The translations under genes and the position numbers were made by a program. A stretch of DNA of 34,801 nt from an uncultured Arenicella sp. (GTDB taxonomy: Bacteria > Pseudomonadota > Gammaproteobacteria > Arenicellales > Arenicellaceae). Within the stretch, counting starts at the first letter, position 1, and each line of letters begins with the position of its first letter. Location of the stretch: assembly GCA_938045295.1 (NCBI GenBank), contig CALINO010000043.1, positions 1 to 34,801 on the forward strand, read 5' to 3'. Positions 14,457 to 33,351 of this stretch are shown here, piece by piece. The notes below the pieces were generated by a model. The model was not told the DNA's origin. It saw only the letters and a program-made list of their open reading frames with translations, and did not search any database.

Positions 14457-14498
14457 AGCGAACGTAAGTCGGCGCTAGTAAAGCCACGTTCGCTTTTT
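14457..14498 (+). terminator. Terminator after radA, overlapping the end of leuD
   Basis: AGCGAACGT (14457-14465) pairs perfectly with ACGTTCGCT (14486-14494), followed by TTTT. The loop is 20 bases and can itself pair GGC with GCC. The right arm and loop lie inside the last codons of the opposing leuD gene. Confidence 0.75.
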
Positions 14499-15074
14499 CT
14501 GATCCGCGTTTCTAAACGCGTTAATCTCTTCTGAAAGTTGCAAGGTAGAGCTGATCGGGTCTAAGCCTTCAAGCAGGCTCTCACGATCGTTGCCCGCCAA
14601 TTCAAATACCACAGATTCACCTGCAAATGAGATTTTTTGACTGCGCAGGTCAATGTCAATTTCATTGTTTTTGTGGCGTAGAATTTGATCTATTTTTTCG
14701 CTGCTTAATTGAATCGGCAAAATACCGTTAGCAATGCAATTGCGGTAGAAAATAGCGCCAAAGCTTTCGGCAATAATGCATTTAAATCCATACTCTTTTA
14801 GCGCCCAAACTGCGTGTTCACGCGATGAGCCACAACCGAAATTACGCTTAGAAATTAAAATGCTGGCATCAGCGTATCCAGGTTGGTTCAAAATGAAATC
14901 TGGATTGGGGATGCGTGCTTTTTCGTCCAGATAACGCCACACCGCGAACAAACCATCGCACAGCCCAAGCTTGGATACGGTTTTCATTTCGCGTGACGGA
15001 ATAATGGCGTCGGTATCTATATTATTGCGTAGTAGCGGGGCGGCAATGCCGGTGTGTGTAATAAATTTTTCCAT
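14475..15074 (-). CDS. LeuD-type hydro-lyase small subunit
   Basis: Small swivelling domain of an aconitase-superfamily (de)hydratase of the isopropylmalate type. The 199 residues show NIDTDAIIPSREMK, NPDFILNQPGYADASILI and FGCGSSREHAVWALKEYGF. Canonical leucine-pathway LeuD has a IIPKQFLK-like motif where this has IIPSREMK, which I associate with a second LeuD subtype seen in some proteobacteria. It lies 13 bp behind the large subunit. No leuA or leuB is nearby; the neighbours are catabolic. Possible substrates include citraconate/citramalate, dimethylmaleate or similar branched dicarboxylates. Isopropylmalate isomerase in leucine synthesis remains the alternative. Confidence 0.85.
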   Translation of the reverse strand: MEKFITHTGIAAPLLRNNIDTDAIIPSREMKTVSKLGLCDGLFAVWRYLDEKARIPNPDFILNQPGYADASILISKRNFGCGSSREHAVWALKEYGFKCIIAESFGAIFYRNCIANGILPIQLSSEKIDQILRHKNNEIDIDLRSQKISFAGESVVFELAGNDRESLLEGLDPISSTLQLSEEINAFRNADQKKRTWLY

Positions 15075-15087
15075 AACTGTGAGTAAA

Positions 15088-16485
15088 CTAGGCGCTTTTA
15101 ATAAAACCAGCGCACGCTGAGGCCGCGACGGTTAATGGGCTGGCAATGTGTGTTCTGGTTTTGGGGCCTTGTCGGCCTTCAAAATTTCGGTTGGTGCTGG
15201 AAATAACACGTTTATTAGGGCCAAATGTTTCACCGCCAGCGTAAAAGCACATAGAGCAACCCGATTCACGCCATTCAAAGCCTGCATCGATTAATACTTT
15301 GTCGATGCCTTCGGCTTCAGCTTCGCGTTTTACTCGGCTTGACCCTGGCACGCAAATGGCTGAAACGCCGTCCGCCACTTTTTTACCGCGTAAAAAATCA
15401 GCCACTAAGCGCAAATCACTGAGCCGGCTGTTGGTGCATGAGCCAATAAATGCGGCGTCAATTTTGACACTATTAATGTCGTCGCCTGGGGTTAGGGCCA
15501 TGTATTGCAATGCGCGCTGCATGGCTTCGCGGCGAGTGGAACTGATGTCTTGTAATTCGTCAGGGTTCGGTACTTGGCCATTGGCTGGCATTGCGTCTTG
15601 CGGGCTGGTACCCCAAGTAACACTGTGCTTGATGTCTTTGCAATCAATATTAACTTCCTGATCAAAGCGGGCATTGGGGTCTGAATGCAATGTTTGCCAA
15701 TGCGCTACTGCTTTATCCCATTGTTCGCCGCTGGGCGCATATGGCCGGCCTTTGACGTATTCAATCGTTTTTTCATCCGGTGCAACCAACCCAGTAAAGG
15801 CTGAAAATTCCACCGCCATATTGCACAGAGTTAGCCGTGCTTCTACGCTTAAGTTTGAAATGGCTTCGCCTGCAAACTCAACCGCATAGCCACTGCCGCC
15901 AGCGGTACCGAGCAGGCTGATCAAGTGTATGATCATGTCTTTTGCGCTCACACCGTCAGACAACGTGCCATTAAAGTTAACCCGCATGCTTTTCGGTTTT
16001 TGTACGCGCAATGTGTTGGTGGCAAGAGCGTGTTCGGCATTGGTGGAACCAATACCCCACGCAAGGGCACCTAGCCCACCTAGAGTGCAGGTATGGCTGT
16101 CTGGGCACACCAGAGTGATGCCCGGTTGAGCAATGCCCAGTTCAGGCGAAACTACGTGCGCAATTCCTTGATCAGGATGAGTTAAATCAAAGAGTTGGAT
16201 ACCTGCGCGCTCAGCCGCTTGCCGAGTTGCTTGAATAAATTTTTCGCCGCCCGGCATTTCCGTATTGTCATTACGGCCTAAACGTGTGCTGACAATGTGA
16301 TCCATGGTGCAAAACACGTTTTCTGGCGAGGCTATTGTGCGGCCACTTTCTTCAAGGCTCAATAACGCAATACTGCCAGTACGCTCATGCAAAAATACTC
16401 GGTCAATATTCAGCAAATATTCCGAGTCGCCAAGCTCACTAATTACATGTACTTGCCACAGTTTTTCAAATAAAGATGACGTCAT
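15088..16485 (-). CDS. LeuC-type hydro-lyase large subunit (4Fe-4S)
   Basis: Large catalytic subunit that holds the 4Fe-4S cluster and hydrates or isomerises a dicarboxylic acid. Cluster ligands are visible as the Cys of GSCTNSRLSDL and the C-x2-C of SGCSMCFYAGG. Other family motifs include CPDSHTCTLGGLGALAWGIG, CVPGSSRVKREAE and SSTNRNFEGRQGP. At 465 residues it has normal LeuC length. It forms a heterodimer gene pair with the following small subunit. An operator-like site is found 40-61 bp upstream of its start (16525-16546), shared with other catabolic units here, which argues for a catabolic rather than leucine-biosynthetic role. The precise substrate cannot be read from sequence. Confidence 0.88.
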   Translation of the reverse strand: MTSSLFEKLWQVHVISELGDSEYLLNIDRVFLHERTGSIALLSLEESGRTIASPENVFCTMDHIVSTRLGRNDNTEMPGGEKFIQATRQAAERAGIQLFDLTHPDQGIAHVVSPELGIAQPGITLVCPDSHTCTLGGLGALAWGIGSTNAEHALATNTLRVQKPKSMRVNFNGTLSDGVSAKDMIIHLISLLGTAGGSGYAVEFAGEAISNLSVEARLTLCNMAVEFSAFTGLVAPDEKTIEYVKGRPYAPSGEQWDKAVAHWQTLHSDPNARFDQEVNIDCKDIKHSVTWGTSPQDAMPANGQVPNPDELQDISSTRREAMQRALQYMALTPGDDINSVKIDAAFIGSCTNSRLSDLRLVADFLRGKKVADGVSAICVPGSSRVKREAEAEGIDKVLIDAGFEWRESGCSMCFYAGGETFGPNKRVISSTNRNFEGRQGPKTRTHIASPLTVAASACAGFIKSA

Positions 16486-19943: not shown

Positions 19944-20252
19944 ATGAGTGCTTATTTAGTTGTAGAAGCGGTTCTTACTGACCCTAAAGGCTTTGTGCCT
20001 TATACAAAAGTTGTGCCATCATTAGTGGCGAAAATGGGCGGTGAATACATTGCCATTGGCGGTGAATCTGAAGTTCTGGAAGGCGAGTGGGGTAACACTA
20101 AAGTGGTGTTGCATCGTTGGCCTAGCATGCAAGCTGCGCGTGACTTTTGGTATTCAGATGAGTATCAGGAGGCTATTAAGTTGCGTGAAGGTACTGGCGA
20201 GTTCCGTGTAATGTTGGTCGATGGTGTTAAGCAAGAAGTATTAAAAAAGTGA
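19944..20252 (+). CDS. DUF1330 family protein
   Basis: A 102-residue protein of the DUF1330 / dimeric alpha-beta-barrel type. The start SAYLVVEAVLTDPKGFVPYT, the GGEYIAIGGESEVLEGEW strand pair and WPSMQAARDFWYSDEYQEAI are characteristic: the last stretch is the usual DUF1330 helix ending in a Tyr-rich SDEY motif. No enzymatic activity is established for the family. AAAGG precedes the ATG. Its stop overlaps the GTG start of the nitrilase-fold gene, so the two are translationally coupled. Confidence 0.85.
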   Translation: MSAYLVVEAVLTDPKGFVPYTKVVPSLVAKMGGEYIAIGGESEVLEGEWGNTKVVLHRWPSMQAARDFWYSDEYQEAIKLREGTGEFRVMLVDGVKQEVLKK

Positions 20253-21310
20253 GCAAGTACATGAAGGTAGATCCTTATCAGGCAATTGCGTTGCAGGTTT
20301 CCTGCCAAGCCGTGAATTTATTACCGTCGGTGGACGAAGCTAGGGCGCAAATGTTGCGTGCCATTGAGCATTGCGATCATCTTATAAAAGGCAGCATTGG
20401 TTTTGCCAATAGCTTTAATGGCGTGCCAGTTAAATTGGTGGTGTTGCCCGAATATTTTCTAACCAGCTTTCCGTTAGGCGAAAGCATACCCGCTTGGATA
20501 GACAAAGCATGTTTGCAATTTAACGGGCCTGAATACGAGGCCTTGGGTAAGGTTGCGCAAAGCAATGGCATTTATCTGTCTGGCAACGCGTATGAGGTTG
20601 ATCCGCTGTTTCCGCAACTGTATTTTCAAACCAGCTTTATTATTAATGACTCTGGCGATGTTGTGTTGCGCTATCGGCGCTTGGTGTCAATGTATTCGCC
20701 AACACCGCACGACGTGCTGGATCAGTATTTAGAAGCGTACGGCAAAGATGCTTTATTCCCAGTGGTTGATACTGACATTGGCCGTTTGGCTTGCGTGGCG
20801 TCAGAAGAAATACTTTACCCTGAAATTACACGTGCGCTGGCATTAAATGGGGCCGAACTAATTTGCCATTCTTCGAGTGAAGTGGGTAGCCCAAGACCAA
20901 CGCCTAAAAATATTGCAAAGCAAGCCAGAGCTTATGAAAACATGGCGTATGTTGTGTCCGCTAACAGTGCAGGAATTGAAAAAATTCCGTTTCCGGCTCA
21001 GTCAACAGACGGCAGTTCGCAGGTGGTTGACTATAAAGGGCAGGTGCTTGCTGAAGCCGACACTGGCGAGTCTATGGCCGGCAGCGCGGTGATTGACATT
21101 AATGGGTTAAGGCAGGCTCGTAATAAGCCGGCCATGACCAATATGTTGGCTCGCCAGCGCTTGGATTTATTTGCTGATGTGTATGGTTCGCAAACGGTTT
21201 ACCCGCCCAATAATATGCTCGAATCTGGCGATGTTGTGGTGCCAGATCGAGCGCATTTCATGCAGTGCCAGGAAACGGCAATAGATAATTTAAAGAAGTT
21301 AAAACAATAA
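20249..21310 (+). CDS. Nitrilase-superfamily protein with replaced catalytic residues
   Basis: A 353-residue carbon-nitrogen hydrolase fold. The catalytic Glu is kept (Glu68 in VVLPEYFLTS). The usual catalytic Lys position in YRK reads Arg144 (LRYRRL), and the nucleophile position six residues before the PE of YPE reads Ser185 in ACVASEEILYPEI, where the family has CYD/CYE. A Cys lies three residues earlier (Cys182) and another at 207. This could be a distinct subfamily using another nucleophile, or a non-catalytic paralogue. The start is GTG 20249 overlapping the DUF1330 stop (GTGA); ATG 20261 is the alternative. It ends 14 bp from the convergent gntR gene. Confidence 0.8.
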   Translation: MSKYMKVDPYQAIALQVSCQAVNLLPSVDEARAQMLRAIEHCDHLIKGSIGFANSFNGVPVKLVVLPEYFLTSFPLGESIPAWIDKACLQFNGPEYEALGKVAQSNGIYLSGNAYEVDPLFPQLYFQTSFIINDSGDVVLRYRRLVSMYSPTPHDVLDQYLEAYGKDALFPVVDTDIGRLACVASEEILYPEITRALALNGAELICHSSSEVGSPRPTPKNIAKQARAYENMAYVVSANSAGIEKIPFPAQSTDGSSQVVDYKGQVLAEADTGESMAGSAVIDINGLRQARNKPAMTNMLARQRLDLFADVYGSQTVYPPNNMLESGDVVVPDRAHFMQCQETAIDNLKKLKQ

Positions 21311-21324
21311 TTTGAATTGCTTTT

Positions 21325-22104
21325 TTAATCTATTTTCAAATCCATTTTGTATTGGAAGTGTTCAGGATTATAGAAAACGGTTAAGTGATCTCGCATGTGC
21401 TCACTGTCGCCGGTTTTATTGAATGAGTGGCGCGTGAGTGTAAGCAGCGCGCTACCTTCAGGAACCTCGAGCGCCGCGGCAATTTCTGGGCTTGCGGATA
21501 CCGCGCTTAATGTTTGTGTCACGTGCGTGATTTCCAAGCCTTTCTGACGAAAGTAACTTAACCTTGGTTCTTTCACGAACAAGTCTTGTTCGCTGGGCAT
21601 TTCCACGCCTGCGGTCCAGCTAACGTAGTAGCCAAATTTACGGCCGTCACGTTCACGCACCCTTATAAGGTGCAGTGCTTTCTCGTTAGAAGCTAACTCT
21701 AAGCCATCACGAATAGCGCCCGGTGGCGTACGTAATGAGCATTCCAAAATAGACGCTTGAGAGTTTCGTGCCATGCTTTCAATTTCTTGCAGCATGCCAA
21801 CCAATGGTGCTTTTACTGGCTTTTGAGTGTATTTGTAAACAACGTGCGAGCCTTTTCCGCGGTGTCGTTCGACAAGCTTTTCTTTCGCTAACTCGTCCAT
21901 GGCTCTTTTGGCCGTAATTCGTGACACGTCAAACGCCTTAGCAAGCTGTTCTTCGGTTGGTATGCGTTCACCGTAAGGCAGACTTCCGTCTAAAATCATT
22001 CCTTTGAGTAAGCTGAATAATTGAAAGTACAACGGCGTAGGAGTGCCACTGCTTAAATTTCTCTTATTTCGGTGCTTAAGTAGTAAGTCTATTGTCTCAG
22101 TCAT
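21325..22104 (-). CDS. GntR family regulator (HutC/UTRA type)
   Basis: A 259-residue repressor-type protein. The N-terminal winged helix-turn-helix (PLYFQLFSLLKGMILDGSLP, IPTEEQLAKAFDVSRITAKR, VERHRGKGSHVV) is that of GntR proteins, and the C-terminal half, with ALHLIRVRERDGRKFGYY and GSALLTLTRHSFN, is a UTRA ligand-binding domain. It is divergent from the membrane-protein gene at 22301. A 22-bp operator-like inverted repeat lies 28 bp upstream of its start, and related sites lie before leuC, 22301 and the 28876 operon. I infer that it controls the cluster and itself; the ligand is unknown. Confidence 0.93.
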   Translation of the reverse strand: MTETIDLLLKHRNKRNLSSGTPTPLYFQLFSLLKGMILDGSLPYGERIPTEEQLAKAFDVSRITAKRAMDELAKEKLVERHRGKGSHVVYKYTQKPVKAPLVGMLQEIESMARNSQASILECSLRTPPGAIRDGLELASNEKALHLIRVRERDGRKFGYYVSWTAGVEMPSEQDLFVKEPRLSYFRQKGLEITHVTQTLSAVSASPEIAAALEVPEGSALLTLTRHSFNKTGDSEHMRDHLTVFYNPEHFQYKMDLKID

Positions 22105-22300: not shown

Positions 22301-22978
22301 ATGATTACAACATTAGCAGTACTTAAATGGTTGCATATAATTGCCATGGTTTATTGGCTTGGTGGCGAATGGGGAGTGTTTAATACTTCTCGATATGTGG
22401 TGGATCGAAACTTAAGTATGCAAGAACGTAAGCGGCATATGAACACGGCCTACATCATTGATATTCCCGCGCGCACCGGCATCATCCTGTTAATGCCCAT
22501 AGGCTTACACATGGGTTACTTTTGGGGTGTTCAGCCTTATGGTGGTGGCTATATGGTGGCTATGTGGGCTTTTACCGCATTGTGGTTGGCCATTTGTTGG
22601 GCTGCGTTCTTTTATCGTGAAACCGATCTTGGCGTCAAATTAACAAAATTGGATGAAAAAATTCGTTTTATCTTAATTCCTTTGATCATCGTTGCTGCAA
22701 TCACTTCCTTGATGGGGTACGGGCCGTTTAATGCCGGTGCAATGCAAAAATGGTTTTCAATTAAATTAGGTTTGTTCGGAGGTCTTTTAATAATCGGCTT
22801 GATATTGCGATTCATTATGCGCGAGTGGACAACACTGTTCCGCATTTTGGCTGAAGGCCCTAACGAGCAAGCTGAAAGCAGGCTGGAAAAGTCTTTAAAA
22901 CTAGGCCGTACACTGGCTTACTTTTATTGGGTTGGAATTGCTACTGTGGCATTTTTTGGTGCGACAAAATTCATGTAA
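22301..22978 (+). CDS. Integral membrane protein of unknown function (CopD/DUF2269-like)
   Basis: A 225-residue protein with about five hydrophobic segments (near residues 3-22, 54-74, 80-100, 120-138, 148-168, plus one at the C-terminus). The first carries WLHIIAMVYWLGGEWGVF, and the WLGG-x2-GVF motif with a following Ser and two Val is shared with the protein at 32686-33351. His and Trp residues within helices recall heme- or copper-related membrane families, but I do not assign a function. It starts after an AGAAAGAG ribosome site, is divergent from gntR with an operator-like site in its promoter, and ends at a strong terminator. Confidence 0.75.
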   Translation: MITTLAVLKWLHIIAMVYWLGGEWGVFNTSRYVVDRNLSMQERKRHMNTAYIIDIPARTGIILLMPIGLHMGYFWGVQPYGGGYMVAMWAFTALWLAICWAAFFYRETDLGVKLTKLDEKIRFILIPLIIVAAITSLMGYGPFNAGAMQKWFSIKLGLFGGLLIIGLILRFIMREWTTLFRILAEGPNEQAESRLEKSLKLGRTLAYFYWVGIATVAFFGATKFM

Positions 22979-23125: not shown

Positions 23126-24028
23126 TTAGTTCTTACTTTCAGCGCGCCTTTTGTCGATGATTTTCTTCATGTATGTCCACGACGTTTCATTTTTTCGTTG
23201 GTCATTTGCTGGTGGGGCATTGGTGTATTTAGGATAACTTTTCTTGATTTCGTCTTTCAGTGTATCCGGCATGTCGTCCCAGCTTTTGAGCTTGCGACCA
23301 ACGGCATTAAAATACATGTCACCGTCTCGGCCTTTCATGTTCATCCAAGGCAACCATTGAGAGATGCGCACCCAGGCAATTTTGCCATATTCAATATTGG
23401 TGTCGGCGTCTAGTAAGGTATCGGAATTACCCATGAAGTCAAAAATTTCAGCACTGTGGTAGGTGCCGCCAATATGCTCTTGGTATTCGCCACCTAATGG
23501 GTTTGGATAGAATAATGGCACTTCATAAGGTAAGAAGTAGCCGCCATCGGCAATAGTGGCCGGAAATGTGTTTTCTTTACCTTCTTTGTCGCGAGCAAAG
23601 TCTGGGCGGCTATTCACCGGGTCGTTGGCTACGTGTATGACTTCGTTGGTTTCTCCAGTCCATGGGTTTTCCCACGTCTTAAGAACTTCACCTGTTTCTG
23701 TGTCTAGGTAGAGCATGATCTCACGTGAAATGATGCGATAGCCTTCGCCTCGTTCTTTGTCATTAACGCCGACACACTGACGAACATTCATGCCTAGCAA
23801 CTTGAATAATTTTTTGTCGCGCTGGCCTTGTACTCGAGAGTAAGCGTTGCCAGCCCACATCCAGGTTACTTCTTCTCCGTCTACCAGCGAGCAGTGAAGT
23901 TTGCGGTTCAGTTTGACATAGCCCTCACCGGTGTTGGGGTCAATTTGGCCGGCATGGCTGACGCCAAGGCTTAAGCTTACGCAGGTGAGTGCAATCGTTA
24001 TATTTTTTATGATGCTTCTTTTTTTCAT
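23126..24028 (-). CDS. Secreted DUF1838 family protein
   Basis: A 300-residue exported protein. Residues 1-26 form a Sec signal peptide (basic MKKR, hydrophobic core, cleavage near SHAG). The mature part, with GEGYVKLNRKLHCSL, MWAGNAYSRVQGQ, REIMLYLDTETGEVL and WENPWTGE, resembles DUF1838 proteins, whose biochemical role is unknown. Trp-rich and aromatic stretches suggest a ligand-binding beta-sheet. GAGGAAA on the minus strand precedes ATG 24028. A 24-bp perfect palindrome lies just upstream, between this gene and the divergent small secreted protein. Confidence 0.82.
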   Translation of the reverse strand: MKKRSIIKNITIALTCVSLSLGVSHAGQIDPNTGEGYVKLNRKLHCSLVDGEEVTWMWAGNAYSRVQGQRDKKLFKLLGMNVRQCVGVNDKERGEGYRIISREIMLYLDTETGEVLKTWENPWTGETNEVIHVANDPVNSRPDFARDKEGKENTFPATIADGGYFLPYEVPLFYPNPLGGEYQEHIGGTYHSAEIFDFMGNSDTLLDADTNIEYGKIAWVRISQWLPWMNMKGRDGDMYFNAVGRKLKSWDDMPDTLKDEIKKSYPKYTNAPPANDQRKNETSWTYMKKIIDKRRAESKN

Positions 24029-26104: not shown

Positions 26105-27037
26105 TCAAGCGTCTTTTGTTTGCGACAAAAAGGCGTTTCGTATGTTGGCAGCGCCGGCACTCCAGACTTTTTCGCCAGCCGTGATGTACTCTAATACTTG
26201 CTCTAATTTGCTAATGCGGTGAGGTTGCCCGAGCATCCAAGGGTGTATGTTTAAAGCTAAGATGCGCCCACCTTGTTGTTCAGCTTCGCCTAGTAAAAAG
26301 TCGTGTGCATCACAAATTTGTTCAACGTAAGACTGTTCACTGTGTTTGTTGTCCATCAGAATGAACTTGTCTTCTAACTCGTTTGATAATGGCATGGCGG
26401 TTATCTCGCCTGAGTTGGTTTTAAAGGCATAAGGCATGTCATCGTTCACCCAGTCTGAAAAATACTCAATGCCATGTTCGGCTAACAGATCTGGCGTATT
26501 TGCACTCTCGCTGCGCGCAGGGCTCAGCCAACCGGTAACGTCTTGACCGCTGAGTTCTCTAAGGCGGGTGAGGGCGTGATCGATCTGCTGGCGTTCGTCT
26601 TCAATGGGCTGCCCACCGTAATGCAAGGCATCCATGTGCAAGCCGTGGCATGCAATTTCATCACCTCGTTCTTTCAGGGCGTGCAGCAAATAAGGGTTGC
26701 GTTCGGCCAAGCGCGTGTTCATGGCAAAAGTAGGGCGAATGCCATATTTGTCGAAGGCTTTTAGAAAGCGGTACACGCCTACTCGATTGCCATAGTCACG
26801 CAAGGTGTAGTGGCGTAAATCGGGGTGTGGCATGGTCATGCCGCCAGGAACCTTAAACGGCTTGCCTTGTTGATTGATTGGAAAGAACTGCAAACACACA
26901 TTCACCCACAGGGCTAACTTTTTACCGTTAGGCCACTCTATTTTGGGGCGTTGGCTGAGCATACTCCACGAGTAACGCTCATGGTCCATACCGTAGCGGC
27001 GCATAGGATACTCTAAAAACTTTTTATCCAGGCTCAT
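26105..27037 (-). CDS. PuuE/NodB-type polysaccharide-deacetylase-fold hydrolase, second of a pair
   Basis: A 310-residue protein of the NodB fold, closest in layout to the allantoinase PuuE and cyclic-imide-hydrolase branch rather than to sugar deacetylases. Visible features are RPKIEWPNGKKLALWVNVCL, LRDYGNRVGVYRFLKAFDKY, EIACHGLHMDALHYGG, TGWLSPARSESANTPDLL and ALNIHPWMLGQPHRI. The usual TFDDG metal motif is absent from the first strand. The start overlaps the stop of the upstream homologue by 4 bp (ATGA), so the two are coupled. A ring-opening amidohydrolase on an imide, ureide or lactam is inferred. Confidence 0.82.
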   Translation of the reverse strand: MSLDKKFLEYPMRRYGMDHERYSWSMLSQRPKIEWPNGKKLALWVNVCLQFFPINQQGKPFKVPGGMTMPHPDLRHYTLRDYGNRVGVYRFLKAFDKYGIRPTFAMNTRLAERNPYLLHALKERGDEIACHGLHMDALHYGGQPIEDERQQIDHALTRLRELSGQDVTGWLSPARSESANTPDLLAEHGIEYFSDWVNDDMPYAFKTNSGEITAMPLSNELEDKFILMDNKHSEQSYVEQICDAHDFLLGEAEQQGGRILALNIHPWMLGQPHRISKLEQVLEYITAGEKVWSAGAANIRNAFLSQTKDA

Positions 27038-27954
27038 GCGATGCTCTCCTGTTGTTGTTTAATACTGCTTAACGCTTGGTCGTAATGGTTTTCAAGGTAA
27101 AAGTCGGCTATTTCACGCCCAGTGGTTACCCACACATCTGAGTGGCCGGTAATGTATTCCAGTGCTTCTTCGTAAGCGCGCATACGGTGCGGGCAACTCA
27201 CTTGGTAATTATGAGTGGGGATGCACATGACGGTGCCAAATTCATCGCCTTCTTGATATAAGCGGTCGAAGTTGTCTTTAATGATTTGCCCATAGCGCCG
27301 CGGTTCTATCTTGTTGACCACGTAGGCAATGGTGTCGTTCATTTCAAGCGAGTAGGGGATTGAGATAAAGCGTGAGCCATTGCGCACTTTTACTGGCGTG
27401 GGTTGGTCGTCATGAAACAAATCGCAGGTGTAAATTCCGCCAGCTTCGGCAAACAAATCAATCGTATGCTCAGAATGAGACAGTGCAGGTGCAAGATAGC
27501 CAGCGGGCTTTTTGCCAACGTGCTTTTCTATGGTGTCCACAGAGTCTTGAATCATTTCACGTTCTTGTTCTTGCGATAAGCCATAGGTGTAGCGCGTGTT
27601 GTACACCCCGTGAGTGAAAAATTCCCAGTCACGTTCGGCGCACATTTCAATAATCTCTGGGTGGTGATCGCACAGCGCCGTAGATAATGAAATAGAGCCT
27701 CTGATGCCATACTTATCCAGCAGTTGCATTTGTCGCTCATGGCCAACCCGGTTGCCGTAATCGCGAATACTGTAACCGCCCACCGCAGGGTACGCTTGTG
27801 GCCACGGTTTACGATTGGGGTTCTCTGGTGGGTTAAGCTCGTAAAATTCAATGTTGGGGGCTACCCAAAATGCAATTTTAGCGCCGTTAGGCCAGGTGAT
27901 TTTGGGGCGTTTTTCATACGCCCAATAGTCGTATAAATTAGGATCTTCTTGCAT
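27034..27954 (-). CDS. PuuE/NodB-type polysaccharide-deacetylase-fold hydrolase, first of a pair
   Basis: A 306-residue homologue of the next gene, with RPKITWPNGAKIAFWVAPNI, SIRDYGNRVGHERQMQLLDK, EFFTHGVYNTRYTYG, AGYLAPALSHSEHTIDLF and CIPTHNYQVSCPHRM. The DYGNRVG block is shared almost exactly with its partner, while the region after the His differs: HGVYNT here and HGLHMDAL there. The two may therefore act as a heteromer or on successive substrates. It lies 10 bp after the isochorismatase-like gene. As in its partner, the first NodB Asp motif is missing, a trait I associate with PuuE-like enzymes. Confidence 0.82.
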   Translation of the reverse strand: MQEDPNLYDYWAYEKRPKITWPNGAKIAFWVAPNIEFYELNPPENPNRKPWPQAYPAVGGYSIRDYGNRVGHERQMQLLDKYGIRGSISLSTALCDHHPEIIEMCAERDWEFFTHGVYNTRYTYGLSQEQEREMIQDSVDTIEKHVGKKPAGYLAPALSHSEHTIDLFAEAGGIYTCDLFHDDQPTPVKVRNGSRFISIPYSLEMNDTIAYVVNKIEPRRYGQIIKDNFDRLYQEGDEFGTVMCIPTHNYQVSCPHRMRAYEEALEYITGHSDVWVTTGREIADFYLENHYDQALSSIKQQQESIA

Positions 27955-27964
27955 GCCGCCCTCG

Positions 27965-28633
27965 CTATTGGGCTTGGCCGTCTAGCCAAGTAAACACGTC
28001 TTGCACTTCAAGGACATCCGCGTATTTAATGGCCAAGTCGGTCAAGTTGGCGTAGTGGTAACTTTCGTGTTTGTCGGCCACGCACTCTTCAGGAACAATG
28101 GTGCGATAACCTCGTGACAGTGAATCAACCGCCGTGGCGCGAATGCAGCCCGAAGTTGAGCCGCCAGTAATAATGACGGTGTCTACCTGATGCCACACAC
28201 ACAACGATTGAAGTTGAGTTTCGAAGAACGCCGAGGGCATTTTTTTGCAGTAGATCACGTCTTTGACTCGGTCAATTTCCAAGCGGTCATCAAACTCGGT
28301 GCGTTCTGAATTAAAGGCAATGTTTTGCAGAGAGTCCGGCGTGTCGGTGCGCGTGCCCCAGATGCCGCAGTCTTCGCCCGATTCCATATAAGCAACGTGG
28401 GTCCAGACAACAGGCCAGCCTAAGCGTCTGAATTCCTTAGCCAGCTCGTTGGTGTAATGCATTTGTTTGGGGTCAGTTTCGTAAGCGGTTTTAAATAAAT
28501 CCGTACGTGTGTATGCTTTTTGTGGGTCGACATTGACTAAAATTGCCTTTTTGCCAAAGCCAAATTTGGCGCGTGTGGGGTTGGCCTTGAGCTCTTGGTA
28601 GATTTCACGCGCCGTCTTATTACTGCTTTGCAT
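27965..28633 (-). CDS. Isochorismatase-like cysteine hydrolase (amidase)
   Basis: Member of the isochorismatase/nicotinamidase/N-carbamoylsarcosine-amidase superfamily. The catalytic triad is complete: Asp in ILVNVDPQKAYTR, Lys in VIYCKKMPSAFF and Cys in GGSTSGCIRATAVDSLSRGY, with the cis-peptide context in place. The overall look is closest to N-carbamoylsarcosine amidase and maleamate amidase types. The frame reaches 28687, but I choose ATG 28633 because GAGGA lies about 10 bases upstream and the earlier 18 residues are unlike the family. It heads a minus-strand operon with the two PuuE-like genes, a pairing that suggests amide hydrolysis after ring opening. Confidence 0.88.
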   Translation of the reverse strand: MQSSNKTAREIYQELKANPTRAKFGFGKKAILVNVDPQKAYTRTDLFKTAYETDPKQMHYTNELAKEFRRLGWPVVWTHVAYMESGEDCGIWGTRTDTPDSLQNIAFNSERTEFDDRLEIDRVKDVIYCKKMPSAFFETQLQSLCVWHQVDTVIITGGSTSGCIRATAVDSLSRGYRTIVPEECVADKHESYHYANLTDLAIKYADVLEVQDVFTWLDGQAQ

Positions 28634-28805
28634 AATTGCTGAGTCCTCGTTACTGTTTTTTCGTGTGTGTAGAGTTTGTTGTATCAATAATGTTCTTAAT
28701 TTTCTCGGTACTAGCTTTGGGGGCTAAGTTTCGCTATTAATTGAACAATATCAGACTGTATTCATGGTGCCATTCATTAGGCGACAAGTGTTATGAATAA
28801 TTTAA

Positions 28806-28875: not shown

Positions 28876-30075
28876 ATGAATAAACCACTTAAAGATGTTC
28901 GAATTCTGGATTTAACCCACATGCTGTCTGGCCCATATGGCGCCATGATCTTAGCTGACCTGGGGGCAGAAACAATTAAGGTTGAACCACCCAAAGGCGA
29001 GGGCACACGCAAGCTTTTGGCGACCGACCCAAAGAATTCCTTAGAAGGCATGGGGGCGTATTACATTACCCTGAACCGTAATAAAAAAAGCACCGTCATT
29101 GACTTAAAAAGCCCAGAAGGCTTAGAGGTGTTTTACGACTTGGTTCGTGAATCTGACATTGTTATTAGTAACTTTGGTGCTGGTGTGCCCGAGCGCTTAA
29201 AGATCGATTACGACACATTGGCTGAAATCAATCCGCGAATCATCACCTGCACCGTGTCGGGTTTTGGTTCTGATGGGCCTAATTATAAGCGCCCTGCATT
29301 CGACCAAGTGGCGCAAGCCACTGGCGGCGGCATGTCGATCACTGGCTTAGATAAAAACACCCCTATGCGCGCCGGCATCCCTATTGGTGACTTAGGTGGC
29401 GGTATGTTTGCCGTAATGGGCATTTTGTCGGCTCTGCATGAGCGTACCAGCAGTGGCAAAGGTCAGCACGTGGATATATCCATGCTGGATGCGCAAATAT
29501 CGTTGCTTAACTACATGGCAACCATGTACTTTATGTCAGGCGAAGACCCGTATCCTATTGGTAACTCGCACTTCGTGCATGTGCCATACGACACCTTTAA
29601 ATGCGCCGACGGGTTTATAGTCATTGCCGTGATTACCGATAACTTTTGGACTAATTTAAAAACGGTGGTGAACGTACCTGAGTTTGATGACCCTGAACTC
29701 GATGGCCAACCTGGTCGTTGGGCTGCGCGAGACATGATCAGTGAAAAACTCAATGACGTGTTGAGCAAAAAAAGTGCAGCGCATTGGATTGCCGAACTTG
29801 AAGCCAAACGCATTCCTTGTGCCCCAGTGAATAAGTTCAGCCAAGCGCTAAATGACGAGCAAGTACTGCACCGTAATATGGTGGTTGATATTGCACACCC
29901 TTCGGGCAAATCCACCAAAGGGCCGGGCAACCCAATTAAGTTGTCACGAACCGCCGAAGAAAGTTTTAGCCCCGCGCCGTTATTAGGGCAAGACACGGAT
30001 GATGTATTTACCAGTGTGCTCAACTATGACGAGTCTAAGCTGGCCGAGTTGAAGAAAAAAGGGGTGATTGGCTAA
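28876..30075 (+). CDS. Class III (CaiB/BaiF) CoA-transferase
   Basis: Moves CoA from a donor such as succinyl-CoA to a carboxylic acid. The 399 residues show the family N-terminus (VRILDLTHMLSGPYGAMILADLGAE split as VRILDLTHML and ADLGAETIKVEPP), the catalytic Asp172 in IPIGDLGGG, equivalent to Asp169 of formyl-CoA transferase, and HVDISMLDAQISLL. No strong ribosome site is seen before ATG 28876. Its stop overlaps the lyase start by one base (TAATG). With an adjacent HMG-CoA-lyase-type gene it resembles the succinyl-CoA:D-citramalate CoA-transferase pair of Chloroflexus; the acceptor acid here is inferred. Confidence 0.92.
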   Translation: MNKPLKDVRILDLTHMLSGPYGAMILADLGAETIKVEPPKGEGTRKLLATDPKNSLEGMGAYYITLNRNKKSTVIDLKSPEGLEVFYDLVRESDIVISNFGAGVPERLKIDYDTLAEINPRIITCTVSGFGSDGPNYKRPAFDQVAQATGGGMSITGLDKNTPMRAGIPIGDLGGGMFAVMGILSALHERTSSGKGQHVDISMLDAQISLLNYMATMYFMSGEDPYPIGNSHFVHVPYDTFKCADGFIVIAVITDNFWTNLKTVVNVPEFDDPELDGQPGRWAARDMISEKLNDVLSKKSAAHWIAELEAKRIPCAPVNKFSQALNDEQVLHRNMVVDIAHPSGKSTKGPGNPIKLSRTAEESFSPAPLLGQDTDDVFTSVLNYDESKLAELKKKGVIG

Positions 30076-30992
30076 TGGCTGAGCGCGTTTATATCAATGA
30101 TGTTGGCCCTCGTGATGGGCTGCAAAATCAAGCTAAAATTTTAACCGTGGCTGAGCGTATTGAGTTAATCAACAGCTTGCTTGAGGCCAACGTAGACAGT
30201 ATTGAAGTAGGCGCGTTTGTGTCGCCTAAGGCCGTGCCAGCCATGGCCGGTTCGAATGAGGTGGCGCTTGGTCTAAATGGCCAGCAGTCGCAAGCTCAGT
30301 TTTCGGCCTTAGTGCCAAATTTGCGCGGTTATGAGATGGCGGTAGAGTCGGGCATTCGCACGGTCGCTATGGTGCTGTATGGCAGTGATACCATGGCGGA
30401 AAAAAACGTGCGCATGACCCCTGAACAAGCAGAGCAGTCTGCCTTAGACATGTTGCAGCGTTCACGCGATGACGGCGTGGCGGTTATTGCTACCATTGCG
30501 GTGTCGTTTGAATGCCCGTTCGACGGGGCTACAAACCCCGACCGAGTGCGTGAAATAACCACCAAATTTCTACAAGCCGGCGCCGAACGTATTGTGATTG
30601 CCGACACCATTGGTGCGGCTAACCCCAGTGACGTGGCCTCGCTGTCAAAAAGCTTAGTGGCTGATAATGGCGCCGAGCAAATTGCGTGTCATTTTCACGA
30701 TACACGGGCTTTAGGCATGGCCAATTTGTACGCCGCGGTAGAGGCCGGTATTCGCCACTTTGACGCTTCGATTGCCGGTTTAGGCGGTTGTCCATTCGCA
30801 CCCGGAGCAACCGGCAATATTGCCACTGAAGACGCGGTCATGATGTTGCATTCAATGGGCTACGACACCGGCATTGATTTAAATAAACTGCTGGTGGCCT
30901 CTGACTTGGCTGAAACCTTAACCGGTTCGGCCCCCGGAGGGCGCAGCAAGCCGTGGTTGGCGCCTTACTTAGCAAAAGGCAAGGCTGTGTAA
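30075..30992 (+). CDS. HMG-CoA lyase-type retro-aldol lyase
   Basis: A 305-residue TIM-barrel lyase of the HMG-CoA lyase family, cleaving a 3-hydroxy-3-methylacyl-CoA to acetyl-CoA plus an oxo acid. The N-terminus has the catalytic Arg13-Asp14 in NDVGPRDGLQNQ; further on come VEVGAFVSPK-like SIEVGAFVSPKAVPAM, the metal-binding HFHDTRALGMANL at about 204 and the signature GLGGCPFAPGATGN at about 236 with the catalytic-loop Cys. It could act on HMG-CoA, citramalyl-CoA or a homologue. Coupling to the CoA-transferase and absence of leucine-catabolic genes (methylcrotonyl-CoA carboxylase, isovaleryl-CoA dehydrogenase) favour a citramalyl-CoA-like substrate. Confidence 0.93.
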   Translation: MAERVYINDVGPRDGLQNQAKILTVAERIELINSLLEANVDSIEVGAFVSPKAVPAMAGSNEVALGLNGQQSQAQFSALVPNLRGYEMAVESGIRTVAMVLYGSDTMAEKNVRMTPEQAEQSALDMLQRSRDDGVAVIATIAVSFECPFDGATNPDRVREITTKFLQAGAERIVIADTIGAANPSDVASLSKSLVADNGAEQIACHFHDTRALGMANLYAAVEAGIRHFDASIAGLGGCPFAPGATGNIATEDAVMMLHSMGYDTGIDLNKLLVASDLAETLTGSAPGGRSKPWLAPYLAKGKAV

Positions 30993-32685: not shown

Positions 32686-33351
32686 TCAAGCCCAAGGTTT
32701 GGCCACACCTAAATAGGCCTCAACCAACAGTATTAGCCAAATAGTGATAACCCAAGGGCGTACCTTGTTTAGGCTGTTAATCATGACTTGATTGTCTTGA
32801 TCATTGTGAGTGCCTTGCAATAGTTTCACATACGTTGCGCTGAAGCCTGTGATCTTTATTCGAATCATTAAGCCGCAAAACACCAACAGTGCAAAGCCAA
32901 GCAATTTGGCAATCAGCCAAGGCGCATTTTCTAAGCGCTGAGTTTGGTAAGCGTAAATGCACGAGGCAATGATCGCGGCAATGATGAACCAACGAAAATA
33001 AAAGTCGAACTTTGTGAGTGCGGCAATAAAGGGGGCGTGGTGCTTAAAGTGCAATATCAGCACCATGGCTAACCAAAAAGGCCCTAAGGCAATGATGGCC
33101 AGCATTTGCCAGCTGGCATGTTCCACGCCAATATAATGCGACAGCAGGCCCCCCACGGTCAGCATTAAACTCATGCATATGCGAGGCAGTAAATCACAGC
33201 CCAGCATGATTTTTGCGGCGGTTAAGCGAGCCTCGGTTGATAGCTCAGGGTTCACCACAAAGCCACTTGAGTAAAAAACGCCCAAATCACCACCCAGCCA
33301 GTAAACAAATAGCAGAAGGTGAATAATCAACAGCAGCTCATAAGTACTCAT
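32686..33351 (-). CDS. Integral membrane protein, paralogue of the 22301 product
   Basis: A 221-residue protein with about five hydrophobic helices. Its first helix, HLLLFVYWLGGDLGVFYSSGF, mirrors the WLGGEWGVFNTSRY stretch of the 22301 protein, and the later basic loop and Trp-rich C-terminus correspond as well. Function unknown; CopD/DUF2269-like fold suspected. It lies 54 bp downstream of the MFS transporter on the same strand and may be cotranscribed with it. Confidence 0.75.
   Translation of the reverse strand: MSTYELLLIIHLLLFVYWLGGDLGVFYSSGFVVNPELSTEARLTAAKIMLGCDLLPRICMSLMLTVGGLLSHYIGVEHASWQMLAIIALGPFWLAMVLILHFKHHAPFIAALTKFDFYFRWFIIAAIIASCIYAYQTQRLENAPWLIAKLLGFALLVFCGLMIRIKITGFSATYVKLLQGTHNDQDNQVMINSLNKVRPWVITIWLILLVEAYLGVAKPWA

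Follow-up and report, generated by a model that had tools for sequence, protein, structure and literature searches.

A nitrilase-fold protein encoded in an uncultured Arenicella genome belongs to a clade, here called SR for its serine and arginine, in which two residues of the Glu-Lys-Cys triad that is treated as the signature of nitrilase-fold enzymes are replaced to give Glu-Arg-Ser. The gene lies at positions 20249 to 21310 on the forward strand of the window, by which we mean the whole stretch of 34,801 nucleotides that was analysed; this is the entire contig C43 of an assembly of 2.99 Mb in 92 contigs. The swap is kept by the close relatives that we examined, which come from many bacteria, so the SR clade is, judged from its sequences, a conserved and uncharacterised branch of the nitrilase family and not a broken gene. 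Among the matches listed in a search of the open-licence literature we recognised no paper on a bacterial Ser/Arg nitrilase-fold clade, which is not proof of absence. The replacements are uniform and chemically able residues, and the reading that we favour, with a probability of about 0.5, is that the protein would be a remodelled Ser/Arg acyl hydrolase with an active site that was rebuilt and became fixed within one clade.

Fold and active-site residues

The open reading frame encodes 353 residues from a GTG start without an internal stop, with an in-frame ATG near the start at 20261. It matches the Pfam family PF00795 (CN_hydrolase) with 97.6 bits against a curated cut-off of 23.2 (E 1e-27), and of the six proteins in its genome that match PF00795 only one scores higher. 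The NCBIfam equivalog models for specific enzymes score it below their cut-offs: 61.7 of 406 bits for the formamidase AmiF, 54 of 427 for the aliphatic amidase AmiE and 51 against 410 for the N-carbamoylputrescine amidase AguB. The best sequence matches of solved structure are NIT2, yeast Nit3 and AmiE. An AlphaFold2 model, made from a 46-sequence alignment of the window protein and unchanged relatives, has a mean pLDDT of 95.1 and a pTM of 0.94, and its top Foldseek match is AmiE (PDB 2uxy, E 3.7e-21). VIA-align places the model on 2uxy with a Z of 32.2 and an rmsd of 2.9 over 288 aligned residues, the best of 998 aligned chains of solved structures, 213 of which had a Z of at least 8. Given both the profile and the structural match, the window protein is a nitrilase-fold protein, and the first-pass annotation, made from the window's letters, was right that the rest of the fold is well preserved.

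All codons given here are on the forward strand. Glu68 (GAA, 20450 to 20452) is the only residue of the triad that is retained, and it is present in all 81 sequences of a set made up of the window protein and the best 80 loci found by our scan. The triad lysine is replaced by Arg144 (CGC, 20678 to 20680, in R-Y-R-R) and the nucleophilic cysteine by Ser185 (TCA, 20801 to 20803, in S-E-E-I-L-Y-P-E), each again in 81/81. The retained Glu68, the arginine in place of the YRK lysine and the serine at the nucleophile position before YPE had all been read from the window beforehand, and the HMMER alignment to AmiE (2uxy) agrees, with Arg144 opposite the YRK lysine and Ser185 opposite the catalytic Cys. 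The model has S185 opening a helix (185-189) directly after a strand (178-184) and R144 coming after a strand (138-143), positions that fit the site of the nitrilase nucleophile elbow. Arg143, Glu186, Glu187, His207 and Glu211 are each found in 81/81 as well. Among the 34 relatives from outside the clade that were compared, 33 have Lys at 144, and position 185 is Cys in 24, Ala in 8 and Gly in 2, where the SR rows all have Ser.

Clade-specific switches occur at 127, 185, 186 and 220, and the switch at 144 is shared with one further sequence, L021. Gln127 (20627 to 20629) is Gln in 32/32 SR rows and Asn in 34/34 of the relatives compared. The pair Glu186-Glu187 (20804 to 20809) is invariant in the SR rows; among the relatives 186 is variable, and 33 of 34 have Glu or Asp at 187. 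Position 220 (20906 to 20908), Lys in the window, is basic in 32/32 SR rows (Lys in 29, Arg in 3), and the relatives have Trp (25), Phe (7), Ser (1) or Tyr (1) there. The loop between the YRR and PHD motifs, where the second conserved Glu of the tetrad (presumably AmiE Glu142) would be expected, is also changed. It is short, running from residue 145 to 152 (20681 to 20704) with the sequence LVSMYSPT and no Glu, and it is 8 residues long in 32/32 SR rows and L021 as compared to 11-14 in most of the nearer relatives. The second Glu is absent from it in 29 of the 32 SR rows. The other three, L013, L167 and L168, have Glu as residue 150, within this loop, and are the same three with Arg at 220, which makes this SR sub-branch a natural contrast for mechanism. 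Since the Cys/Lys rows L014, L170, L152 and L155-L159 likewise lack the second Glu, its loss is older than the serine or separate from it.

In 29/32 SR rows the tetrad keeps one residue of four, and a new fixed cation has been added. The catalytic Glu is found in the SR protein, and the Lys, the nucleophilic Cys and the second Glu are not; with two of the three triad residues missing, it is a homologue with the fold and not a canonical member. A concerted change of this kind, uniform over several phyla, points to changed function and not to loss.

The cysteines near the site deserve separate mention. The first-pass annotation had seen a Cys three residues before the normal place, and counting from the GTG start this is indeed Cys182 (20792 to 20794), which is Cys in 59/81 and Ala in 19/81. 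Its 'Cys207' was misnumbered, as the residue is Cys206 and 207 is His; Cys206 is Cys in 42%. Over the 32 SR rows the most frequent Cys columns are Cys19 (23), Cys182 (15), Cys88 (14), Cys206 (13) and Cys25 (12), and none is conserved throughout. Nothing in the alignments puts Cys182 or the second of these cysteines in the triad place together with a Lys, the arrangement that had been named as speaking against a variant site, and as neither is conserved both are ruled out as the nucleophile.

Departures from the canonical Cys are also found outside the clade. In the 44 rows with Lys of our full alignment the nucleophile column holds Cys in 31, Ala in 8, Gly in 2, Thr in 1, Val in 1 and a gap in 1, a warning for annotation, since among these relatives it is not rare for a PF00795 protein to lack the Cys. 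The rows with Ala (L015, L016, L120, L121, L122, L123, L153 and L154) and with Gly (L025 and L171) keep the Lys and Glu68. They are found elsewhere in the tree, the Ala rows not as one group in either best tree, and such branches also occur on haloarchaeal plasmids, with L120-L123 annotated as 'nitrilase-related carbon-nitrogen hydrolase'. From their residues, these branches cannot be expected to use the usual covalent mechanism, and with eight Ala and two Gly rows the loss of the nucleophile is evidently tolerated nearby. In a further PF00795 branch, represented by L006 (G000:C13:35587-36315, from the window's own genome) and L024, the nucleophile column holds Val or Thr and is accompanied by a gap of two residues.

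Distribution, selection and order of the changes

Our scan of genome contigs relied on a pair of peptide patterns, and one of them, SEEI[LM][YFW]PE, picks out sequences with the serine. At least 557 stretches were confirmed, and the best 80 of these were examined as loci. Because one pattern contains the serine, a serine-free check was needed, and this was provided by 19 relatives found without the motif in whole-genome protein and profile searches and in a plasmid collection (5 of 125 plasmid records were taken, and three further genome matches in the class of genome G634 were left out). These 19 are 44-59% identical in the 77-row alignment described below. Two of them are not new, as L008 duplicates L059 from the 80 and L142 matches L097 at 97% identity; each of the remaining 17 shares no more than 65% identity with any of the 80 loci. 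All 19 have Glu, Arg and Ser. An alignment of close homologues had been proposed as a check on Ser185 and Arg144, and since both are present in 81/81 and in 19/19 motif-free relatives they are not there by chance. Below the SR relatives there is a gap in identity, with L021 (Arg and Cys) next at 39% and then rows with Lys at 34% or less.

The clade was found in 7 of the 369 genomes of the window's class, its own included, and in 10 of the 385 of G634's class, which is about 2% of genomes in the two classes searched. Its nearest relatives include an Arenicella MAG at 73% identity, from which the window's class should be Gammaproteobacteria, and there was no match at E 1e-20 in any of the three same-genus genomes drawn. 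Five phyla are represented among the 80 loci, with many phylum labels resting on MAGs, and the loci are not independent, as 22 come from Cellvibrionales. A link to viruses was considered and dropped, as 36 stretches of viral contigs matched a pattern and none of them encodes a relative. Some SR relatives (L091, L096 and L102) carry an N-terminal extension with what can be read by eye as a putative Tat signal (DRRQM, TRRSFL), hinting at export.

The alignment used for the trees has 77 rows: 32 Ser/Arg, 1 Cys/Arg and 44 with Lys. Left out of it were the duplicates L117, L118, L151, L002, L007, L108 and L109, together with L003 and L004, distant paralogues from the window's own genome; L124-L141, which repeat places covered by earlier loci, were unused. 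The trees have 72 rows, without L164, L169, L005, L006 and L024, and the table of switches, which sets the 32 SR rows against 34 relatives, is also without L001, L113-L116 and L166. The 32 Ser/Arg proteins form one clade with a support of 100/99, and of 100/98 when columns 68, 127, 144, 182, 185, 186, 187 and 220 are masked. L021 is sister to this clade at 100/99 in both the unmasked and the masked tree. Because this sister has Arg with Cys, the change of Lys to Arg probably came before that of Cys to Ser, an order that rests on one Arg/Cys sequence on a long branch. The simplest history would have Lys become Arg in the ancestor shared with L021 and Cys become Ser on the SR stem. The alternative, a serine already in that ancestor with a reversion to Cys in L021, would take one change more.

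The serine is encoded in diverse ways, with all four TCN codons in use at 79/80 loci and AGC in one. Using a simple Nei-Gojobori count, dN/dS had a median of 0.345 and a range of 0.026-0.557 over 85 pairs with dS of 0.1-1.2, which are not independent, and it was below 1 in all 85; for the pair Q-L028 the silent sites are saturated. The SR gene is under purifying selection. The well supported clade in five phyla, its invariant S185, R144 and E68, the TCN codons and the dN/dS together support the first-pass annotation in proposing a functional variant subfamily rather than decay, where functional means that selection has kept the gene. That annotation did not pick up the changes at 127, 186 and 220, the shortened loop or the surroundings of the gene.

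Gene neighbourhood and proposed function

To describe the surroundings, the genes of the window were used as queries against the 80 loci at E 1e-15 and 60% of the query. Directly upstream is a gene for a DUF1330 protein (19944 to 20252, forward; PF07045, E 4e-26), which overlaps the nitrilase-fold gene by four bases (GTGA). At least 33/80 loci have such a gene immediately before the nitrilase-fold gene and in the same orientation, a lower bound because some loci stop at a contig end, and the neighbourhood test finds a homologue in 32/80. The convergent neighbour is a GntR/UTRA regulator (21325 to 22104, reverse; 26/80). Further on are a 225-aa protein without a Pfam or NCBIfam match (22301 to 22978, forward; 25/80), which by eye looks like an integral membrane protein, a DUF1838 protein (23126 to 24028, reverse; PF08894, E 1e-72; 21/80), two PuuE-like polysaccharide-deacetylase-fold proteins (26105 to 27954, reverse; each 21/80), the first of two isochorismatase-family hydrolases (27965 to 28687, reverse; PF00857; each of the two 21/80), a CaiB-type CoA-transferase (28876 to 30075, forward; PF02515; 23/80) and an HMG-CoA-lyase-like protein (30075 to 30992, forward; PRK05692 above cut-off; 16/80). 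LeuD-like and LeuC-like hydratase subunits (14475 to 16485, reverse) recur in 16/80 and 24/80 loci, an amine oxidase in 13/80 and a 221-aa protein in 12/80. The LeuC of this island is a second genome copy, with 553 bits under the LeuC cut-off of 560, where the copy on C59 has 730 bits. The best NCBIfam match of the CaiB protein is succinyl-CoA:mesaconate CoA-transferase, under its cut-off. The frames at 22301-22978 and 32686-33351 encode similar-looking proteins of about 220 aa with a WLGG motif, both without a Pfam or NCBIfam match (25/80 and 12/80 loci).

Nine housekeeping genes of the window were found in 0/80 loci each, as against 16-32/80 for twelve others. Being single-copy, they make a lenient control where a family is large, as CaiB and isochorismatase are, and paralogous queries (the two PuuE-like proteins, the two isochorismatases) may match the same ORFs. 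Some window genes rarely recur, namely DUF4437 (5/80), YCII (4), a 139-aa ORF (4), AsnC (2) and LysR (1), and the Amdase-like and MFS genes were found in 0/80 loci each. Median identity is 77% for the second PuuE-like protein and the first isochorismatase and 33-38% for CaiB and the HMG-CoA-lyase-like protein, so the hits to the latter two in other loci may be dissimilar enzymes that share only the family. Other frequent neighbours are aldehyde dehydrogenase (35 loci) and FAD_binding_4 oxidase (30 loci), families that are absent among the window proteins scanned. The stretch from 14475 to 34782 holds the LeuCD-like subunits, a cupin, DUF1330, the nitrilase-fold protein, DUF1838, the amine oxidase, two PuuE-like proteins, two isochorismatases, CaiB and the HMG-CoA-lyase-like protein, and parts of it recur round the SR gene in other bacteria. 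By its gene content this neighbourhood is recurrent and apparently catabolic, yet not fixed. At the start of the window, a frame that we take to be OdhB (1-781) loses its usual end after SVLFLRTI, and what is presumably a DeoA-like frame (609-1907) lacks its usual start and begins near 781 in another frame, which has the appearance either of a joint made in assembly or of a true deletion close to the end of the contig.

If the protein is the remodelled acyl hydrolase that we favour, its rebuilt site would keep Glu68 and have Arg144 for Lys, Ser185 for Cys, Gln127 for Asn and Lys/Arg220 for Trp/Phe, with the second Glu mostly gone. Ser185 at the elbow would attack the carbonyl, aided by Glu68 and possibly by Lys220 as a new base, and Arg144 would take the oxyanion-holding part of the lost Lys. 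Arg144 and Lys/Arg220 are also candidate charge binders, which would suit an amide or ester that bears a carboxylate. Because the gene is found beside imide/amide hydrolase-like enzymes, a LeuCD-type hydratase, CaiB and an HMG-CoA-lyase-like enzyme, we suggest a half-amide, imide or ester step toward an alkylated C4-C6 diacid, with the substrate a guess. Along such a route an N-containing ring or imide would be opened, the amide nitrogen removed, an alkylated maleate-like acid hydrated, and the product loaded onto CoA and cleaved. This chain is drawn by analogy from what is known of the families, and the pathway is a guess, since the isochorismatases, PuuE-like and CaiB proteins pass no NCBIfam cut-off. 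Parallels can be found in the maleamate amidase and maleate isomerase of nicotinate breakdown, in dimethylmaleate hydratase, and in imidase and half-amidase. A broader proposal, which we offer tentatively as somewhat doubtful in its full extent, is that the clade-wide switch from Glu-Lys-Cys to Glu-Arg-Ser with the fixed cation at 220 has given a natural serine-nucleophile hydrolase or a non-covalent catalyst, within an undescribed catabolic island (PuuE-like, isochorismatase, LeuCD-like, CaiB, HMG-CoA-lyase-like) for N-containing rings, for example alkylated maleimides supplied by tetrapyrrole breakdown.

A serine in a canonical nitrilase pocket would be expected to be poor, and the co-changes at 127, 144 and 220 may make it work or may mark a different chemistry. 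In the latter case Glu68, Glu187, Arg144, Lys/Arg220 and Gln127 of a repurposed, non-covalent catalyst would do acid-base chemistry (isomerisation, hydration, decarboxylation or a lyase reaction) and Ser185 would only bind the substrate. This would agree with the three tetrad residues altered in 29/32 SR rows, the new invariant positive charge at 220, the retention of Glu68 in those branches outside the clade that have Ala or Gly where the nucleophile would be, and the isomerase- and hydratase-type families among the neighbours. However, it is a serine, and not some other small residue, that occupies the position in 81/81, and we regard this chemistry as unlikely. It is also rather unlikely that the protein has no catalytic part at all and acts in binding, as a scaffold or as an allosteric partner, perhaps of the DUF1330 protein encoded upstream. 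The gene order in 33/80 loci and the four-base overlap in the window would agree with such a partnership, as would the loss of all or nearly all activity when Cys is mutated to Ser in canonical members. On the other hand, DUF1330 is not directly upstream in 47/80 loci (some of which end there), a second nitrilase-like ORF that could be regulated is present in just 3/80 of the loci in the DNA fetched, and residues presumed to line the pocket count among the invariant positions, a constraint for which a scaffold would have no use.

The two remaining readings have far less in their favour. An ordinary nitrilase with a triad rebuilt from Cys182 or Cys206 and a migrated Lys could point to Lys220, which is new and nearly universal (29/32, the others Arg), but no Cys column is conserved, the most frequent, Cys19, reaching 23/32; we find this very improbable. 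Decay of the gene, to which the lack of a match in the three same-genus genomes might be attributed, has a negligible chance and is ruled out by the full-length open frame, the tight conservation of residues in 81/81 and the dN/dS below 1 in every pair.

Comparison with known systems

The SR protein can be compared to several known systems. AmiE (2uxy, 2plq) and AmiF (2dyu, 5g3o) are like the SR protein in their near-full-length fold, the catalytic Glu and the YPE after the elbow. They differ in that identity is 19-20% and the SR protein has Arg for Lys, Ser for Cys and no second Glu. N-carbamoylputrescine amidase, NIT2 and beta-ureidopropionase also share the fold and the general-base Glu, but their own Lys and Cys are canonical. 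In the two papers concerned, the C233S and E207Q variants of human beta-ureidopropionase are inactive (PMC10741476), the C158S variant of the Medicago N-carbamoylputrescine amidase has 'strongly diminished' reactivity and no covalent adduct (PMC4812014), and both sources give the second Glu a part in catalysis. The same Cys to Ser change that disables or badly weakens these canonical enzymes is found in every SR row examined, in several phyla.

Closest in sequence outside the clade is L021, from genome G368 of the window's class, at 40% identity. It resembles the SR protein in R144, in Glu187 and in the 8-residue loop without the second Glu, and it differs in Cys185, Gly186, Asn127 and Trp220. 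Given this Cys/Arg sister and the short list of co-changes (127, 144, 185, 186 and 220), the conversion of a Cys to a Ser nucleophile could be tested by a few residue swaps.

The closest likeness in the triad itself comes from squid. Symplectin-like pantetheinase homologues with E-K-S or E-R-S triads are described in PMC5541922, whose authors consider that the serine could still serve as the nucleophile. Going by that description, the E-R-S proteins (the yellow-starred clades and proteins of the Figure 1 legend) belong to the same superfamily and have the same three triad letters as the SR protein. They are unlike it in belonging to the animal biotinidase/pantetheinase family, which has an extra base domain, for which the 353 residues of the SR protein would leave little room, and according to the same text the squid serine proteins 'do not form a clade' apart from Group 3. 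As far as this analogy goes, the squid E-R-S proteins are a precedent for the triad letters of the SR clade.
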